Of a stretch of DNA of 64,000 nt, positions 10,024-53,406 are shown one piece after another. Where the stretch lies: positions 204,382-268,381 of the forward strand of contig NZ_JAODIW010000008.1 in NCBI RefSeq assembly GCF_026586625.1, in the 5' to 3' direction. Below the pieces are notes generated by a model that searched no databases, was not told the DNA's origin, and saw only the letters and a list, made by a program, of their open reading frames with translations. The DNA comes from Halobium salinum (lineage in GTDB: Archaea; Halobacteriota; Halobacteria; Halobacteriales; Haloferacaceae). How positions within the stretch are numbered: position 1 is the first letter of the stretch; each line of letters opens with the position of its first letter. Position numbers and translations under genes: made by a program.

Positions 10024-12207
10024 TTAGTCGCGACGGACCGCGAGGAGCGCGGCCGCGACGAGCGCGATGACAGCGACGGCGATACCGAAGCCGGGCGTGC
10101 TGCCCGTGGTCTCGCCCTCACCGTCGCCGGTGGTCGTCGTGCCCGCACCGTCACCAGTCGTCGTGGTGCCGTCGTCGGTCGTCGTCGTGCCGTTGTCGGC
10201 GGTCGTCGTCGTGCCGTTGTCGGCGGTCGTCGTCGTGCCGTTGTCGACAGTCGTCGTGCCGTTGTCGGCGGTCGTCGTGTCGTTCTGACCCTCGACGAAC
10301 GTGGCGTCAGCCGTCACGTCGTCCTCGAAGCCGGGACTCGCGGTGGCTTCGACGGTGAAGTTCGAGCCAACTTCCTGACCGCTGAAGTTGAAGGCGGCCT
10401 CGAACGTGCCGTTCTCGGTGACGTTCGTGGTGACCGACTCGACGAACGGGTTCTCGGCGCCGGAGACGGACTGTGCGCGGACCGTCACGTCGGAGCCGGG
10501 CGCGATGGAGGTCTCACCGGAGATGGTCGAGTTCTCGGAGGCGGCAACCTCGAGGTTGTCGCTCTCGAACTCAGCCGTACGGTCGACGACGCGGAACTGC
10601 GCCGTCACCGAGGAGTCCTCGATCGGAAGCGGGCTGTCCTCGGGAGCCTCGACGGTCGCGTTGTAGCGACCCGTGTCTTCGCCCTGCGTGTTGATGACGA
10701 CGAACACGTTGTTCGTCTCGTCGTCCGCGTAGATGGCCTCAGGAGTCACAGAGGCAGCATCCTGGTTCGGACCGGGGTTCGTCTCCTCAATCGAGAGGCT
10801 CAGAACGTCCGGGTCGAGCTGGCCGAGGAGGGTCTGGTCGCCGGTGAGGTTAGCCTCGACTCGCTCGAGGTAACCGAAGTGACCGGAGCCCTGAATCTGA
10901 ACGACTGCGTAGTCCTGCTGCGCAATCGTACCGTCCTGGACGACGTCACCGGCCTCGACTGCTTCGAGGACGTCCTGCGCGTTGCCGACATCCTCAGCCG
11001 CGTCGGGGTAGGTGGTCCAGGTCTGTGCGCTCTCGAGAGCCGCGTCAGCGACGGCGAGCGTGCCGACAGCCTCGGGCGAGACGTCGTCAGCATCCTGCTC
11101 CGCCTCGGGCTGGTCGAGCTCGTCCTGGTAGTCGCCTGCGTTGTAGATTTCGACCTCGTAGTTACCCTGCTCGAGTGCACCGCTAGCACCCGTGTCGTCG
11201 CCACTGATGGCGGCGATGTCCGTCACGTCAGTGTCGTCGTCAGCAGCCGAAACACCGTAGAGCGGCGAGTCGGCGGCAGTGCCGAAGGTGTTGAGCGTGA
11301 TGTTGGCCGTCTCCTCGTCGGTCTCGACGAGAACCGTGCTCTGGTAGCCAACGTCCTCGGCGTTACCGATCTGGACGACAGCCGAGTCGGTGTTCTCCAG
11401 GTTGATGGTCATGTTGACCGTGTCGCCGGAGTTGACCGTCGGGCTGCTGTCCTCGAGGCTGTAGGAGGTCGTCCCCTCCCGCGTCACCGTGATGCTCGCC
11501 TCGTCGGAAGCCGTCGTGTCGACGACGGCGAAGGTGAAGTTGTAGTCACCAGTGCTGATGCCATCGAAGTTCGCGTCGATGGGCGTCTCAGCGTCGCTGA
11601 TGACGACTTCGTCCTCACCGTCGATCTCTTCGACCGAGGTCCGGTTGAAGATGTCCTGAAGCTCCTCGTCGTCGAGGCCGTCCGCGCGGACGTAGACCTC
11701 GTAGTTGTTACGCACGGAGGACGAGATGTCGACAGTCGTGCTGTCGCCCTGCTGGACCTCTTCGTCGTCGAACTCGGCGGTGATGCTCTGTTCGACGACC
11801 TCGAAGGTCACGATCTCGTTACCCGAGCGGCTCGTCGTGAGGACGTAGGTGCCGCTCTCGAGGTCGTCCGTGTCGATGAGGACGTCGCCGTCACTGTCGA
11901 CTTCGACGGTCGACTCGAGACCACCGATGGTGCTCTCGGATGCGTCGTACGAGCGGACTTCGAGAGTGCTGTCGGTGGTGATGTCCGTGATAGTGTCAAC
12001 GTTCTGTACGCCGAGCGTCTGGCCAGCGTAGACTGTCGCGCTGGCGCCGACGCCGTCCGCACCTGAAGCAACGTCTACCTCCGTGTCCCAGTCGTCCGCG
12101 TTAGCGGCGGCCGACGTCCCGGCGAACGCGACGGTCCCGGCGAAAACCGAGAAGACCATCAGCGCAGCCAGGAAGAGGCTACGAAGTTTTTCGTTAGTAT
12201 CTGTCAT
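10024..12207 (-). CDS. S-layer-type surface glycoprotein with PGF-CTERM tail
   Basis: 727 aa secreted glycoprotein, probably the major S-layer protein or a close paralogue. The signal peptide MTDTNEKLRSLFLAALMVFS...SAAA (1-35) matches haloarchaeal S-layer leaders. The body is made of acidic beta-sandwich repeats with many N-x-S/T sequons. Before the anchor lies a Thr-rich O-glycosylation stalk (about 650-700) with several near-identical NGTTTTADNGTTTT units. The tail has PGF at 705-707, a hydrophobic helix and RRD, an ArtA substrate signature. ATG 12207 fits the conserved MTDT start; an in-frame ATG at 12243 also has an SD-like GGAGG upstream. Whether it is the main lattice protein cannot be decided here. 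Confidence 0.88.
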   Translation of the reverse strand: MTDTNEKLRSLFLAALMVFSVFAGTVAFAGTSAAANADDWDTEVDVASGADGVGASATVYAGQTLGVQNVDTITDITTDSTLEVRSYDASESTIGGLESTVEVDSDGDVLIDTDDLESGTYVLTTSRSGNEIVTFEVVEQSITAEFDDEEVQQGDSTTVDISSSVRNNYEVYVRADGLDDEELQDIFNRTSVEEIDGEDEVVISDAETPIDANFDGISTGDYNFTFAVVDTTASDEASITVTREGTTSYSLEDSSPTVNSGDTVNMTINLENTDSAVVQIGNAEDVGYQSTVLVETDEETANITLNTFGTAADSPLYGVSAADDDTDVTDIAAISGDDTGASGALEQGNYEVEIYNAGDYQDELDQPEAEQDADDVSPEAVGTLAVADAALESAQTWTTYPDAAEDVGNAQDVLEAVEAGDVVQDGTIAQQDYAVVQIQGSGHFGYLERVEANLTGDQTLLGQLDPDVLSLSIEETNPGPNQDAASVTPEAIYADDETNNVFVVINTQGEDTGRYNATVEAPEDSPLPIEDSSVTAQFRVVDRTAEFESDNLEVAASENSTISGETSIAPGSDVTVRAQSVSGAENPFVESVTTNVTENGTFEAAFNFSGQEVGSNFTVEATASPGFEDDVTADATFVEGQNDTTTADNGTTTVDNGTTTTADNGTTTTADNGTTTTDDGTTTTGDGAGTTTTGDGEGETTGSTPGFGIAVAVIALVAAALLAVRRD

Positions 12208-46829: not shown

Positions 46830-47498
46830 ATGAGCACGATTGCGGAACTCGAGGTCCCCGCGGCCGAGTTCGCCCTCGCCGACAGCTTCGCCGCCCTCCC
46901 CGACCTCGAGGTCGAGGTCGAGCGGGTCGTCGCCCACGACTCCGACCGGCTCCTCCCCTTCGCGTGGGTCCGGGCCGACGCCGCGACCGCGACGGCGGTG
47001 GCCGACGCCCTCGAATCGGACCCGAGCGTCGCCGAGGCTCGGGAACTCGCGGACGTCGGCGACGAGCGGCTCTACGAGATGCGCTGGGAGACGGCGACGG
47101 AGCTCCTCCGACACGTCGTCCACGAACAGGGGGCCACGGTGCGTTCGGCGCTCGGGCGGGACGGACGCTGGTCACTCCACACGCTCTTTCCCGAACGGCA
47201 GGGGTTGTCGGCGACCCGCGAGTTCTGTGCGTCCGCGGACCTCACCCTCGACGTGCGCCGCGTCTACGAGTTGGACACCCGTCGCCGGGGCCGGTTCGGT
47301 CTCACGCGGAACCAGCACGACTCGCTCGTCCGGGCCGCACGAATGGGGTACTACGACGTCCCCCGCGACGCGACGCTGTCGGAGGTGGCGTCCGGACTCG
47401 GTATCTCCCACCAAGCTCTCTCCGAACGCCTCCGACGCGGCCACGGCCACCTCGTGCGGGGCGCCCTCACCGTCGGGGCTGACGGGAACGAGCGGTAG
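46830..47498 (+). CDS. Bacterio-opsin-activator-type HTH regulator
   Basis: 222 aa. The C-terminal HTH_10 domain is clear (LTRNQHDSLVRAARMGYYDVPRDATLSEVASGLGISHQALSERLRRGHGHLV, about 160-211). The N-terminal sensor half (ELEVPAAEFALADSFAALPDLEVEVERVVAHD...) is the usual partner in this haloarchaeal family, thought to bind small ligands. ATG 46830 matches the family start MSTIAELEVPA. Divergent from polB; target unknown. Confidence 0.87.
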   Translation: MSTIAELEVPAAEFALADSFAALPDLEVEVERVVAHDSDRLLPFAWVRADAATATAVADALESDPSVAEARELADVGDERLYEMRWETATELLRHVVHEQGATVRSALGRDGRWSLHTLFPERQGLSATREFCASADLTLDVRRVYELDTRRRGRFGLTRNQHDSLVRAARMGYYDVPRDATLSEVASGLGISHQALSERLRRGHGHLVRGALTVGADGNER

Positions 47499-47658
47499 TA
47501 CGCGGCGTGAAGAGCGTAGGTCGGACCGGGTGCGCGTCCGCGAGTGACCGCGAGTGGGCGCAAGAGCGCGCTGGGAGAACATCGCGACGGAGTCGTACCC
47601 GAGGCCGTCAGCCGTTCGTCGGACGAATCCGGCGAGATTCGCCGTCTAACCCGCAAAG

Positions 47659-47667
47659 CATATACCA
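47659..47667 (+). promoter_or_regulatory. TATA element of the 47.7 kb small gene
   Basis: GCATATACC stands about 30 bases before ATG 47693, predicting a leaderless mRNA. Confidence 0.5.
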
Positions 47668-47692
47668 TGGTACCACATAGCACGCTCCGTCG

Positions 47693-47926
47693 ATGACCGA
47701 TCATGCAGACGACGGACGTCGGGACCGGACGGGCGCCGAGCGCCCGAACCAGACGTTCGACGCCGACGAGGTGGGTGCCAGTGGCGCGAACGAGGCCGAC
47801 GGCGGTGCGGACGCGACCCCGGTCGAGTCCTACGAGACGGACGACGGGACGGTGTTCTACGAGTCGGAGAACCCGCTCGCGTGGGTGCAGTCTTCGTTGA
47901 CGGTCACACTGCAGGACAGCGCCTGA
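47693..47926 (+). CDS. Small acidic protein (DUF7331-like)
   Basis: 77 aa. A disordered Asp/Glu-rich first half is followed by a conserved-looking C-terminal block, VESYETDDGTVFYESENPLAWVQSSLTVTLQD, which I recall from a haloarchaeal family, DUF7331. Function unknown; it is not membrane-bound. It opens a run of three small plus-strand genes ending before the rad50 terminus. Confidence 0.68.
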   Translation: MTDHADDGRRDRTGAERPNQTFDADEVGASGANEADGGADATPVESYETDDGTVFYESENPLAWVQSSLTVTLQDSA

Positions 47927-47966
47927 ACCCGCAGTCTTTTGTGCGCGCAGGGACCCTCTCTCGAAC

Positions 47967-48500
47967 GTGTTCGACCCGGCACCTGACGAACCCGACGAGT
48001 GGTCCGCCGAGAAGCGGTGGGGGGACCCCGAGCGTGACCTCCCGAAGGTGCCGGAGGCGCCCTCCACGCGGGACACCTCGGAGAACGAGGTGTCCGCCGA
48101 CGTCGCCGCCACCTTCTGGGGCGTCGTCTTCATCGTGAACATCGGGCTGTTCGCCGTCGCGCTCGGGCCGATGCTCGTCTTCTTCAACGGCCAGTGGGAG
48201 TGGGGTGGCGGTCTCTTCGCGTTCGGCGTGCTCGCCCTCGGGCACGCCTACAGCCGGTACCGGACGTTCAAACGTGACCAGGAAGCGAAGGAGCGCGAGG
48301 GGGACGGGGACGCAACGGCGGTCGACGGCGGCGGGGACGCCGATGGTACGGATGACGAGGGTGAGAATCCGGTCGACGCCATCGACGCGGCCGACACCGC
48401 CACCAGCGAGGAGGCGGCCGCCGACGGAGAGACGACCGAAGACGGGGGCCTGACGGAATCGTGGTCGTCCGACCGAGCGGCGACCGAACGCAAGCGTTAG
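47967..48500 (+). CDS. Membrane protein with acidic tail (DUF7322-like)
   Basis: 177 aa. A charged N-terminus (EPDEWSAEKRWGDPERDLPKVPEAP) is followed by two membrane helices (VVFIVNIGLFAVALGPMLVFF; GGLFAFGVLALGHAYSRY) and a disordered Asp/Glu/Ala-rich tail from about residue 110. I recall the family as DUF7322. GTG 47967 is used; a TCTTTTGTG about 30 bases upstream is the probable promoter. Role unknown. Confidence 0.62.
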   Translation: MFDPAPDEPDEWSAEKRWGDPERDLPKVPEAPSTRDTSENEVSADVAATFWGVVFIVNIGLFAVALGPMLVFFNGQWEWGGGLFAFGVLALGHAYSRYRTFKRDQEAKEREGDGDATAVDGGGDADGTDDEGENPVDAIDAADTATSEEAAADGETTEDGGLTESWSSDRAATERKR

Positions 48501-48525
48501 GCGTCCGCCGACGCTCCGGACGAAC

Positions 48526-48984
48526 ATGCAGACCGTCGAGGACGACGCCGGCAAGCGGTACCTCCTCGTGAAACGCTCCGGCGAGTCGAGTCTCGTCCGC
48601 GACCCCGACACCGGCGCGGAGCGGTACCTCCCGAACGCCGACCTCGACCCCGTCGACGACGCGGCGACGCTCGTCGTCGCGAGCGAAGGCGTCCCCGCGA
48701 GCGTGCGGCGCGTCCTCACCGCCGTCCGCGACGAGCGGTCGCTCGGGCTCCTCCTCGAACTGGTCGACCGGGGTCCGCTCCCCGTCAGGACACTGCTCTC
48801 GGCGTACGACCTCTGTGAGAGTGACCTCCACGGGACACTGACCGAGTTCCGGGCGGCCGGACTCGTCGAGGAGGCGCGAGTCGCCGGCGAACGCGGCTAC
48901 GCCGCGACCGACCTCGCGGTCGACGCCGCGGAGCGGCTTCGCTCGGGCGGAGCTGATACGGACGAGGAATTGGGGGAGTGGTAA
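48526..48984 (+). CDS. Winged-helix-like protein (DUF7346-like) convergent with rad50
   Basis: 152 aa. N-terminal beta-rich segment (GKRYLLVKRSGESSLVRDPDTGAERYLPNADL), then a helical region resembling a winged helix (VRRVLTAVRDERSLGLLLELVDRGPLPVRTLLSAYDLCESDLHGTLTEFRAAGLVEEARVAGERGY). I recall it as DUF7346, often near rad50/mre11 in haloarchaea; it may bind DNA. It is convergent with rad50, separated by the tandem hairpin array. Confidence 0.65.
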   Translation: MQTVEDDAGKRYLLVKRSGESSLVRDPDTGAERYLPNADLDPVDDAATLVVASEGVPASVRRVLTAVRDERSLGLLLELVDRGPLPVRTLLSAYDLCESDLHGTLTEFRAAGLVEEARVAGERGYAATDLAVDAAERLRSGGADTDEELGEW

Positions 48985-49037
48985 ACGGCAGACGCTGCGG
49001 CCACGTCGGTCGTCACCCTGTTGCGCCAAGGCGTCGA

Positions 49038-49182
49038 CCGGAGACGGACTCCGGCCGTCGTTGCGCTCAGTCGTCACGCCACCGCGTCAGCGAATCGCGG
49101 GGCGACGGGACGCCCCGCGTCGTCGCGCTGGGTCGTCCACACCACCGCGTCAGCGAACCGGCCGCGCACGAGCGCGCGGCCG
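49038..49182. repeat. Tandem array of three hairpins with covarying stems
   Basis: Unit A: CCGGAG-ACGGA-CTCCGG (49038-49054). Unit B: CGCGGGGCG-ACGGGA-CGCCCCGCG (49096-49119). Unit C: CGGCCGCGC-ACGAGC-GCGCGGCCG (49159-49182). The stems differ in sequence but each pairs perfectly, and the loops all start ACG. Linkers of about 40 bases between units are nearly identical (…GCGCTcagTCGTC…CCACCGCGTCAGCGAA). The linker resembles the rad50 3' end read on the plus strand (ACCGCGTCAGTCGTCG). The array sits between convergent genes. Confidence 0.75.
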
Positions 49183-49255
49183 TCGTGGCGCTCAGTCGTC
49201 GCTCTGCCGCGGTGGCGCGTGCTCGCGCCCAGAGAGCGCTCGCGGCGCGACCGCG

Positions 49256-51943
49256 TCAGTCGTCGCCCGCCATCGCTTCGACCGCCCGCAGCGCGTCCGC
49301 GGTCTCGCGCTCCACGGTCGAACGGTTCGTCGTCGCGTCCTTCTCCACCGTCACGAGGTCGTCCGCGGCGCCGACGAGCTCGTCGTCGTGGCTGACGATG
49401 ATTATCTGGGCGACGCCGAGCCCGCGCATCTCTTCGACGAGGTCGACCAGTCGGGAGACGTGTCCCGAGTCGAGAAAGACTGTCGGCTCGTCGAGGATGA
49501 GCGGCGGCATCGGCGCGGCCCCGTCGATTCCTTCCGCGAGCAGTCGGTAGATGGCACAGCGCAGCGAGAGGTTGAACAGCGCGCGCTCGCCCCCCGAGAG
49601 CTGTTCGGGGTCCAGCGCCTGCCCGTCCTTCTGGAAGACGGTGAGTTCGTACTCCCCGTCGAGGCGGATGCGCGAGTAGGCGTCGTTGCCGTAGACGAGG
49701 TCGAACGTCTCGTTGAGCATCCGCTCGAGACTCTCGACGTTTCGCTGCCTGAGCTCGGCACGGAGGTCGCCGTACATCGACTCCAACTCCTCGGTCTCGG
49801 CGTGGAGCGACTCCAGTGCGTTCACCCGCTCGGCGAGCGCCTCGCGGGTCTCTCGGAGGCGTTCGAGCTCCTCGATGGCGTTCTCGACGGCGCCGACCTC
49901 GCTCTGGAGCCCGTCGCGGCGCTCGCGGAGCTCTTCCAGTTTCGCCTCGACCTGCTCGAGGTAGTTCTCGGCACGTTCGCGGTCCGCACGTGCCGTCTCG
50001 ACGGCCTCCTCGTCGACGGTCTCCTCGAGTTCACTCTGCGTCGCGCGCTTGTCCGCGAGCCACTCGCGGCGCTCGTCGTTTCGTTCCTCGATGGTCGCTC
50101 GCTTCTCGCGGAGGCGTTCGATGTCGTCCTCCGCGTCGGCGACGGCGTCCCGGAGCTCGCCCGCCCGCTCGATACGCTCCCGTTCGTCGGCGACCGACTC
50201 CCGCTCGGCCTCCAGCTCCTCGGCCTCCTCGCGGCGCTCTGCGGCCGCTTCCGCCTTCTCCTCGGCGACCTCCCGGAGCTCCGTCACCTGTGACTCCAGC
50301 TCCTCGGCCTCCTCGCGCAGGCGCTCGGCCTCCGCCTCCCGCCCGTCGAGGTCGCTCGCACGGTCCTCGACGAGCTGAGCGACGTTCTCCCGGTTCGAGC
50401 GCTTCCGCTCGACCGCGTCTTCGGTCGCCCCCAGCGCCTCGGCGGCGTCGACCGCCGAGTCGAGTTCCTCGACCTCGGCTTCCAGCTTCTCGACTTCGGC
50501 CTCCAGTTCGGCCACGCGCTCGCGGTCGTCTTCGAGGTCGGAGACGTGCGGGGAGCCGTCGAGGTCCTGCCCGCACTCCGGACACTTCCCCTCCTCCAGC
50601 AGGCGCTCCGCCTCCTCGACGCGGTCGCGGACCGACCGCAGCTCCCGCCGGACCGAGTTCAGCTCTTCGCGGCGCTCCTCACGCTCCGATTCGCGTTCTG
50701 CGAGGTGTTCGTCGGCGTCGCCCAACGCGACCGGCGCGTCGTCGAAGCGCGCCTCGAGCTCCGCGATGCTCTCGTCGAGCTCGTCGAGGCGCTCGCGACG
50801 GTCTTCGAGGTCCGCCTGCGACTGTTCGAGCTCGGCTTCGACCTCGTCGGCCCGCTCGCGCTTCGACGCGGCGCGGCGCTCGTTCTCTTCTGCCTTCTCG
50901 CCGAGGTTCGTCGACTGGTTCCGGAACCCGTCCGCCTCGCGCCGGAGGTCGTGCATCTCCTCGCCCAGCTCTTCACGGCGCGCCTCGAGTTCGTCGAGTC
51001 GCGCGGAGACCGCCTCCGCCTCGGCCGACGGGAGCGACGTGTCGGCGACGACCTCGTCGAGTTCTGCCCGGAGGTCGTCGATTCGCTCGCGCGTCTCGTG
51101 AATCTCCTCGCGGTGTGACTCGCGCCGGCGCTCGTCGGCCGCGATTTTCTCTTTCAGCTCCGAGATTTCGTCGGAGAGGGAGTCGAGTTCGGCGCGCTTC
51201 TCCTCGTGTGCGTCGAGGACGGCCGTCGCCTCGTCCCGCGTCTCCCGTGCAGTCTCCCGCTGTTCTTCGAAGCGCTCGACCTCCCCCTCGACCTCGCCGA
51301 GTTCCGACTGGAGCTCGTTGAGCCGGCCGTGGAGGTGCTGCTCCTCCTTGGCCTCTATCTGCGAGTCGAGTTCGGCGAGCCCGCCGCGCTTGTCCGCGAG
51401 CACGTCGTTGACGCCGAGTCGAGCCTCGCTCGCCCGCTCGCGGTACTCCTCCAGGCGACCGAGTTGGAGGAGGTCGTCTATCATGTCCTGACGTTGGCTC
51501 GGCGTGGCGTTGATGAGCTTGTTCACCTCGCCCTGTCGGACGTAGGCGCAGTTGACGAACGCCTCGCTGTCCATCCGGAGGAGGTCGGTGACGAACTCGC
51601 GAACGGCCTCCGCTCCGTCGCGGCTCTCGTCCGGCCCGTCGAGGGTGCAGTCGGCCGTGAGGACGCGCTCGCCGGAGCGCCGGAGCCGACGGTGGACGTG
51701 GTACTCGGCGCCGTCGTGCGTGAACTGCAGGTCGATTTCGGCCTCGTCCTCGCCGTTCGTGACCACGTCGTCGAGGGTGCCGTCGAGCGCCTTCGAGCCG
51801 TAGAGGGCGAAGAAACACGCCTCTAGGAGCGAGGACTTCCCGCTCCCGTTGAGTCCATGGATGACAGTCACGCCGTCGCGGAGTTCCAGGTCGGCGTCGG
51901 CGTAGGGCTTGAAGTTCGTCAGTCGGACGCGGTCGAACCTCAC
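49256..51943 (-). CDS. rad50: DNA double-strand break repair ATPase Rad50
   Basis: 895 aa SMC-like ATPase. Walker [10 protein letters not shown] (30-38), long coiled coils with a zinc hook C454-P-E-C457, signature [14 protein letters not shown] and Walker [12 protein letters not shown] near the C-terminus. With Mre11 it tethers and resects broken ends; in haloarchaea it also restrains homologous recombination. It overlaps mre11 by four bases on the same strand. The hook and ATPase halves are complete. Confidence 0.97.
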
Positions 51944-53406
51944 TGGAAGTCCTCCATGGAGACCTGGCCGTCGGTGTCGGTCTCGTTCCCGGTTCCACGT
52001 CCGTTCGTGGACTCGCTCCCGCTCTCGCTCGCGGACTCGGTCTCACTCGCCGACCCGCCATCGCTATCGCTCCCGCTTCCGGTTTCGCCCGCAGTCGCGG
52101 CGTCTGCCGTCTCCGCCGAATCCGTGGCTTCCGCGGTCCCGTCTCCGCCACCCGGTCGGTCCGCCTCCGCGGGGGTCGACGCCGATGCCGGACTCGTGCC
52201 CGCGTTCGCCGTCGCGGTCGACTCGGACTTCTCCGCGCGCGCGAAGGCGTCGGGGTCGTCGAGCAGGTCGGCCACCCGCCCTTTGACCTCCTCGCGGACC
52301 TTCGAGTCGACGACCTTGCTCGCGCGGACCGTCTCGTCTACGTCGAGCGCCGCCGTCGACAGCCCCATCTCGTCGACCCGTTCTCTGACCGCGGCGTCGG
52401 GGTCGGCGAAGGAGACGTCCGAACCGGTCTCGCCGTCGAACTCCCGGCGGTCGGTGACGCGAGCGACGAGTGCGCCGCGCTCGGTGGCGTACTCCTCGAT
52501 GCTCGCGGGGGTGACGGGGTCCCCCTCGCCGGTTATCTCCACGACGACGACTGCGTCGTCCAGGTCGTACTGGCGGACTTGTTCACGCACGCGGTCGACG
52601 CCTTCGCCCTCGGCGAGGGGGGCCGAGACGAACCTGAACGGGCGGGTGTCGAGGGCCCGCCGCCGGATGTCGACGGCGGCAGGTGCCGAGCCGTCGTCGT
52701 GGTCGCTCTCGCCCTCGCTCCCGTCCACCGTCTCCCCCGTGTCGGCGCCGAACGTGACGAGGTTGTAGCCGCGGCCCGCCTCCTCGCTCGTGCTCGCGCG
52801 CTCGGTCGACCCGCAGTAGGTCACCCACGTCCCGAGCACCTCGGCGGTGTCGGCCTCGTGGTTGTCGCCGAGGAGGACGGCGTCGAAGTCGACGTTCGCG
52901 GAGTCGAGGACGGTCTCGGTGTCCCAGTTGGCGTGGGCGAAGGGCGTGAAGAGCCCGTGCCCGACGAGGGCTCGGTACGCCGCGTCGGTCTCAGCGAACT
53001 GGTACTCCAAGTCGTCGCGGCGGGACTCGGGGACGTGGTCGAGTCCGTAGAAGGCGGTGTCGCCGACGACGGTCGGCTCGGAGCCGAGTCGCGTCGCGAG
53101 TCCGAGGTTCTCGAAGAGGTCGAGCCACTGGCCGCCCCGCGTCGCCTCGTGGTTCCCCACGATGGCGAGAAACGGAATCCCGGCGTCGTCGAGCGTGCGG
53201 AGGACCGAGAGCACGCCGAGCAGGTCCTGAAGTTCGGGACGCCGGTCGTGAAAGAGGTCGCCCGCGTGGACGACGGCGTCGGCCTCGTCGTCGACGGCGT
53301 CCTCGACGACGGCGGCGAACGCGTCGAGAAAGTCCTGGCGTCGCGCCGGCGAGTGGTACTGCTGGTACCCCACGTGGGTGTCGCCGGTGTGTATCACCCG
53401 TGTCAT
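51940..53406 (-). CDS. mre11: DNA double-strand break repair nuclease Mre11
   Basis: 488 aa. Phosphodiesterase motifs: [25 protein letters not shown] (1-29 region), [32 protein letters not shown] and [12 protein letters not shown] capping domain lies at about 275-345. From about 395 the protein is a long Ser/Gly/Glu-rich disordered tail that ends QVSMEDFQ (481-488), resembling a PCNA-interacting box. The gene is coupled by four-base overlaps to an upstream small gene and to rad50 downstream. Confidence 0.96.

Follow-up and report, generated by a model that had tools for sequence, protein, structure and literature searches.

The locus downstream of rad50

The window, by which we mean the whole 64,000-nucleotide stretch analysed, carries an array of hairpin units in the gap between rad50 and a convergent gene for a DUF7346 family protein. 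From mre11 downwards, the features are as follows.

51940-53406, minus strand: mre11, adjoining rad50
49256-51943, minus strand: rad50 (SMC/AAA ATPase; AAA_23, SMC_N), whose C-terminus reads ...GDD-TGA and whose stop codon is joined to the array
49256-49264, minus strand: first core, GACGACTGA, read from the sequence as the final two codons and stop of rad50
49205-49255, minus strand: hairpin unit of the second type (B), separating the stop of rad50 from A unit 1 (MFE -37.4 kcal/mol, z -1.86)
49189-49200, minus strand: core of A unit 1, GACGACTGAGCG
49159-49182, minus strand: hairpin of A unit 1, 9 bp with a loop of 6 (unit 49137-49200, 89.1 bits)
49138-49157, minus strand: conserved 3' linker, TTCGCTGACGCGGTGGTGTG
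49126-49137, minus strand: core of A unit 2, decayed in sequence to GACGACCCAGCG, with the stop lost
49096-49119, minus strand: hairpin of A unit 2, 9 bp with a loop of 6 (73.9 bits)
49064-49075, minus strand: core of A unit 3, GACGACTGAGCG
49035-49057, minus strand: hairpin of A unit 3, 9 bp with 1 mismatch, and a degenerate 3' linker beyond it (unit 49013-49075, 42.7 bits)
48526-48984, plus strand: DUF7346 family protein gene, convergent with rad50 (PF24037, E 2.7e-64)

A preliminary description had reported three hairpins here, with perfect stems of 6-9 bp, loops beginning ACG and nearly identical linkers. The hairpins, their loops (read on the plus strand) and their linkers are present as described, at a spacing of 62-63 bp, but the stems are not all perfect. 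On the plus strand, the hairpin at 49035-49057 (CGACCGGAG-ACGGA-CTCCGGCCG) has 9 bp with one mismatch and a perfect core of 6 bp, while those at 49096-49119 (CGCGGGGCG-ACGGGA-CGCCCCGCG) and 49159-49182 (CGGCCGCGC-ACGAGC-GCGCGGCCG) are paired throughout their 9 bp. A fourth, longer hairpin, the B unit at 49205-49255, lies outside the coordinates given earlier and links the array to the rad50 stop; this type of unit is present also at loci L021, L027 and L029.

With a period of 63, 2.4 copies and a score of 186, the rad50 array is the top-scoring tandem array of the window (TRF). A separate strong tandem repeat, with units of 21 and 24 bp (GTCGTCGTCGTGCCGTTGTCGGCG), is found at 10114-10284. Because a covariance model built from 39 units of the same genome scores the three window units at 89, 74 and 43 bits, the array cannot be attributed to chance. 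No Rfam family matched at E<=1 within 47000-51000, and no terminator consisting of a GC hairpin followed by a U-tract was found on either strand of 48900-49400. The folding energy of single 62-nt units likewise gave no z-score signal; with a GC content of about 70%, energy is not informative by itself, and the case rests on covariation.

A dispersed family in register with stop codons

The array is not peculiar to rad50; it belongs to a dispersed family of repeats, of which it is a single locus. Searching for the linker elsewhere in the genome, as had been proposed, was productive: blastn of the rad50 gap against the 4.46 Mb genome returned 17 places on several contigs, and in the twelve that we inspected the unit recurs in head-to-tail arrays at unrelated genes. 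We extracted and aligned 39 units to build the covariance model, which identified 77 units at E<1e-3, a lower bound obtained by scoring 150 of 20,162 first-look candidates. These fall at about 40 loci in arrays of 1-5 units, many of them of two to five.

On the gene strand, an A unit consists of the core GACGACTGAGCG, a hairpin with a stem of 8-11 bp and a loop of 4-6 nt, the segment TCGCTGACGCGGTGGTGTG, and the next core. Written out, the layout is GAC GAC TGA GCGC(C/A)ACGAC - stem - loop - stem - TCGCTGACGCGGTGGTGTG - next unit's GACGACTGAGCG, and the consensus of the 39-unit alignment is GACGACTGAGCGCCACGAC-stem-loop-stem-TCGCTGACGCGGTGGTGTGG. Each module thus comprises a core that holds the gene's final two codons and stop (GACGAC-TGA-GCG), a hairpin, and a conserved tail that leads into the next core. 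At the base of the hairpin, AGCG and CGCT are able to pair. There is one central palindrome per unit, and no terminal repeats were seen in the consensus. The common loops (TTCG, TTCA, CTTG, CCCG) are mostly pyrimidine-rich; in columns 29-35 of alignment A1 they vary mostly by transitions, keeping to three pyrimidines and a purine before a T, whereas the stems change freely. Another type of unit, the second (GACTAGCCCGGAGCGACCGC ... GCCGTCGCGGAGGTGCGACTGAG, with a TAG stop), occurs in about 12 copies that alternate with the main unit, for example at L208, L202, L227 and L231.

The register with the upstream gene is fixed at most loci. With coding around the arrays called from strand and codon-position GC, not from curated annotation, the first unit has the upstream gene's stop at its offset +8 in 25 of the 37 loci; at about 10 further loci a single second-type unit stands in front (-50 to -59). 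A gene end of GACGACTRA was found at 20 of the 26 loci with a fused first unit and in 1 of 49 window genes (Fisher p 5e-12), the one window gene being most likely rad50 itself; because the model includes the core columns, these statistics on register and gene ends carry some ascertainment bias, although loci with decayed cores were still found. The arrays lie on the gene strand in one orientation, head-to-tail, with the hairpin about 10 nt past the stop. One exception is the fumarase array of this genome, which begins just past a GAG-TGA end and is out of register.

The resemblance between the linker and the end of rad50, already remarked upon in the preliminary description, proves to be the central feature of the family, GACGACTGA being common to both. 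The accompanying suggestion that the rad50 end had itself been copied does not hold, as the identical core is found at about 20 other, unrelated genes. Nor do the data bear out a bidirectional terminator for convergent genes: the gene downstream of the array is co-directional at 18 loci and convergent at 15, with no excess of convergent neighbours, and the U-tract is missing.

Dozens of differing stems lie between these nearly invariant flanks. Over the 77 units, 91.8% of cells are paired, compared with 68.6% after shuffling; two-sided changes number 202 cells where shuffling leaves 69; and covariation scores 0.508 against 0.138, falling to at most 0.12 when the partner is slid, with similar values from the 39 units, all of these being counts over paralogues whose paired cells are not independent events. 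The earlier observation that stems change with pairing kept is therefore strongly supported over 39-77 paralogous units. Its reading as the signature of a selected structure stands only in part, since selection is one of two ways in which palindromes can be kept and the wobble test gave no sign of RNA selection. The ratio of G-U to A-C in the stems is 19 to 12 for inner and 4 to 19 for outer positions, so that there is no wobble excess on the gene strand, and we rejected an RNA-level wobble signature.

Identical stems tend to be avoided within one array, but this is a trend only, with 9% of shuffles equally low. Near-identical adjacent duplicates do occur (for example at L202), and stems at L038, L042 and L030 are chimeric, combining arms of two types, a sign of recombination within the loop.

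We also looked for a vehicle and for a mobilising enzyme. In annotated plasmids and phages there was no copy of the unit beyond one weak match to a bacterial plasmid, and on this result a plasmid or phage origin was rejected. The Y1/RAYT transposase domain PF01797 had no match in the genome, with E. coli and Haloferax volcanii positive as controls, and Y1/RAYT mobilisation in the present genome was rejected accordingly.

Empty sites and related forms in other genomes

Four array loci (rad50, the DHH gene, ftsY and fumarase) were compared with their counterparts in relatives. The DUF7346 gene is kept in all sampled relatives except one incomplete genome. The rad50-DUF7346 junctions that we read in relatives contain no comparable array, and several of them end rad50 in DD-stop followed by a short spacer. 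A lack of the repeats in relatives had been named beforehand as evidence against the array; that lack is what we see, but it makes the rad50 array lineage-specific and marks it as dispersed, not as false. The DHH gene, with its five units here, has none in any of 13 relatives; in one of these, CTGGACGACTGA is followed by unrelated DNA. In the related genera the rad50, DHH and ftsY arrays are all absent, while the gene ends are otherwise similar.

The end of ftsY is particularly informative. In 11 of 13 relatives the last residue of the protein is E, preceded by acidic residues (DEE, ADE, AEE or similar); the other two end in LVG. Here (L211/L308) the gene reads GGC GAG GAC TGA-GCGCC and runs into the array, giving a C-terminus of GED-TGA against mostly DEE/DE-stop elsewhere. 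The junction therefore lies inside the ancestral coding end, and from the sequence the ftsY stop looks to have been supplied by the element.

Related forms exist in two other genera. Arrays are found at fumarase in the present genome and in each of the three genomes of genus g22, with none at the other loci read; the g22 arrays are divergent, with design and core as here, and the g22 fumarase has an extra residue before its last dipeptide. Genus g18 has compact units of 31-35 bp in which a 5-bp hairpin stands directly 3' of the stop (GACTGA-GCGGT-CGTC-ACCGC-GAGGGTGGAAC-GACTAA), and another g18 copy, GCGGC-AGTC-GCCGC, shows a compensated change.

Different repeats were also seen at gene ends. 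In two other genera (L265 in G166 and L272 in G139, both around 1380-1780), arrays of CACGACTGAGCG(G/A)AGCGAAGGAG... directly follow a gene that is purH-like in appearance and ends ...CFRHD-stop; they form another gene-end repeat family, with a GACTGAGCG core in common. At L270 (G137), around 1480-1560, a tandem 37-bp repeat, GACTGAGCGCGGCACTGGGCGGCCGCGTTTCGGTGAC, lies 3' of a gene ending VDDD-stop, and its unit contains a stop without a long hairpin.

Of 392 genomes of the order, nearly all lack the linker pattern. We also searched 84,980 species genomes, a collection from which the window's own genome is possibly absent, for exact copies of the core GACTGAGCGCMACGACG. The 83 matches were single and scattered, nearly all of them in bacteria and none in a haloarchaeon, and we treat them as chance. 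From these absences the element is narrow in distribution, but it is probably older than the genus of the window.

Probable nature and spread of the modules

Among known systems, the REP and BIME elements of bacteria (the GTAG and CGTC superfamilies, PMC3733652; RAYT-linked, PMC2817692) are likewise short extragenic palindromes present in many copies per genome, with stems of 8-9 bp, in clustered mosaics and frequently after genes (PMC3733652, PMC2817692). REP subfamilies with complementary stem changes have also been described (PMC3733652, PMC2817692), and the 77 units at about 40 loci found here are many clustered extragenic palindromic copies in the same sense. The differences are equally clear. 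Here the flanks are conserved, the stems variable and the stop codon inside the unit (compare PMC3733652); the arrays are head-to-tail, whereas head-to-tail dimers are rare or absent in REPs, in which head-to-head or tail-to-tail dimers predominate; the consensus has no GTAG tag and lacks the A-T stem start and CCA tail of the CGTC type (PMC3733652); and the Y1/RAYT transposase that goes with REPs of the GTAG type was not found. The family thus works like REP/BIME in copy number, palindromes and mosaic clustering, and departs from it in tag, transposase and dimer orientation.

Among haloarchaea, the PATEs, MITEs and small mobile repeats of Haloquadratum walsbyi (PMC3119063) are also short, non-coding and dispersed, PATEs with palindromes near their ends. 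In the part of that description covered here, they have terminal inverted repeats or IS605-type ends, and none is presented as joined to stop codons in a fixed register, or as a tandem array of hairpins whose stems vary (PMC3119063). The units of the present family have a single central palindrome and no visible terminal repeats, and a search of the genome found no Y1_Tnp. By the features tested the family is neither attC nor CRISPR, and as far as the description above goes it is probably not MITE or PATE.

We consider it rather probable that the units are lineage-specific, dispersed, REP/BIME-like hairpin modules of about 63 bp, which spread to gene ends, supply or reuse a stop codon, and grow head-to-tail at the core. 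A module would enter where a gene ends in a sequence like GACGACTGA, or would replace the final codons and bring its own stop, so that in either case coding would not be interrupted. Each entry would regenerate the core, and later modules could therefore stack head-to-tail at the same place. Recombination in the common cores and loops may then shuffle the modules and make them chimeric. The stems would diversify yet stay paired if the formation of a DNA (or RNA) hairpin is needed for spread or function; alternatively, replication may copy one arm anew from the other. The host gene may plausibly be affected as well, in a secondary way, by having a hairpin in its 3' UTR at the stop.

A bolder form of this proposal, which we offer only tentatively, is that they are archaeal mobile hairpin cassettes, inserted site-specifically at host stops, supplying their own stop and stacking head-to-tail. 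An enzyme other than Y1, reading the conserved flanks and the loop and tolerating any paired stem, would move them as folded single strands.

Alternatively, the units might be 3' UTR RNA elements whose hairpins end transcription, shield the end of the mRNA or influence the ribosome as it terminates, the arrays being amplified terminators. Units that always lie on the gene strand, right after the stop, fit this idea, as do the mostly pyrimidine-rich loops and a hairpin placed within the 15 nt reported for E. coli REPs, where hairpins that close to the stop are reported to lower translation (PMC12306157). In bacteria, hairpin clusters that lack a U-tract have been put forward as terminators (PMC8355165), and intrinsic terminators and such clusters likewise lie directly past the stop (PMC8355165); the present units differ in forming a sequence family with conserved linkers that is not tied to convergent pairs. 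We nevertheless regard this account as unlikely: neither the wobble counts nor the orientation of neighbouring genes shows the excess it would favour, the search of 48900-49400 found no U-tract terminator, and it leaves the dispersal of a unit that includes a stop codon unexplained.

Somewhat less likely still are neutral palindrome dynamics, in which homologous recombination and replication slippage between GC-rich repeats spread and shuffle the units, and pairing is kept only by template switching that copies arm from arm (quasipalindrome correction). The chimeric stems, the adjacent near-identical duplicates, the missing RNA-strand asymmetry and the failure of the PF01797 search of the genome to find a mobiliser all agree with such a process. 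However, ordinary recombination would not bring one 63-bp module, in a single orientation and register, to the ends of dozens of unrelated genes, and it is the loops and flanks that are conserved, not the stems.

Integron attC sites are single-strand hairpins that conserve structure over sequence, lie next to stop codons and form arrays. An integron-like or CRISPR-like cassette array, in which a dedicated recombinase captures variable inserts between conserved repeats, would share those traits and would fit the alternation of conserved head-to-tail cores of about 38 nt with variable parts of 24-26 nt, but we think it very improbable, as the variable parts are palindromes from a repertoire common to several loci and not the unique, non-palindromic spacers that separate the near-identical repeats of a CRISPR array, the boxes RYYYAAC/GTTRRRY are missing from the consensus on inspection, there are no gene cassettes, and the units are dispersed at about 40 separate genes and not gathered on one platform.

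We found no description of stop-codon-anchored hairpin arrays in the literature covered, which excludes subscription sources, and they constitute a previously unrecognised family of at least 75 modules. If their reading as dispersed modules that spread to gene ends is true, stop-carrying repeats in a fixed register would let selfish or regulatory DNA settle throughout a dense genome while leaving its genes unbroken. Such repeats would also edit C-termini, here that of ftsY. Because no RAYT/Y1 enzyme was found, the family tests whether REP-like elements spread by another route. Its stems, variable but always paired in about 75 copies within a single genome, offer a natural experiment that sets selection for structure against arm-to-arm copying.
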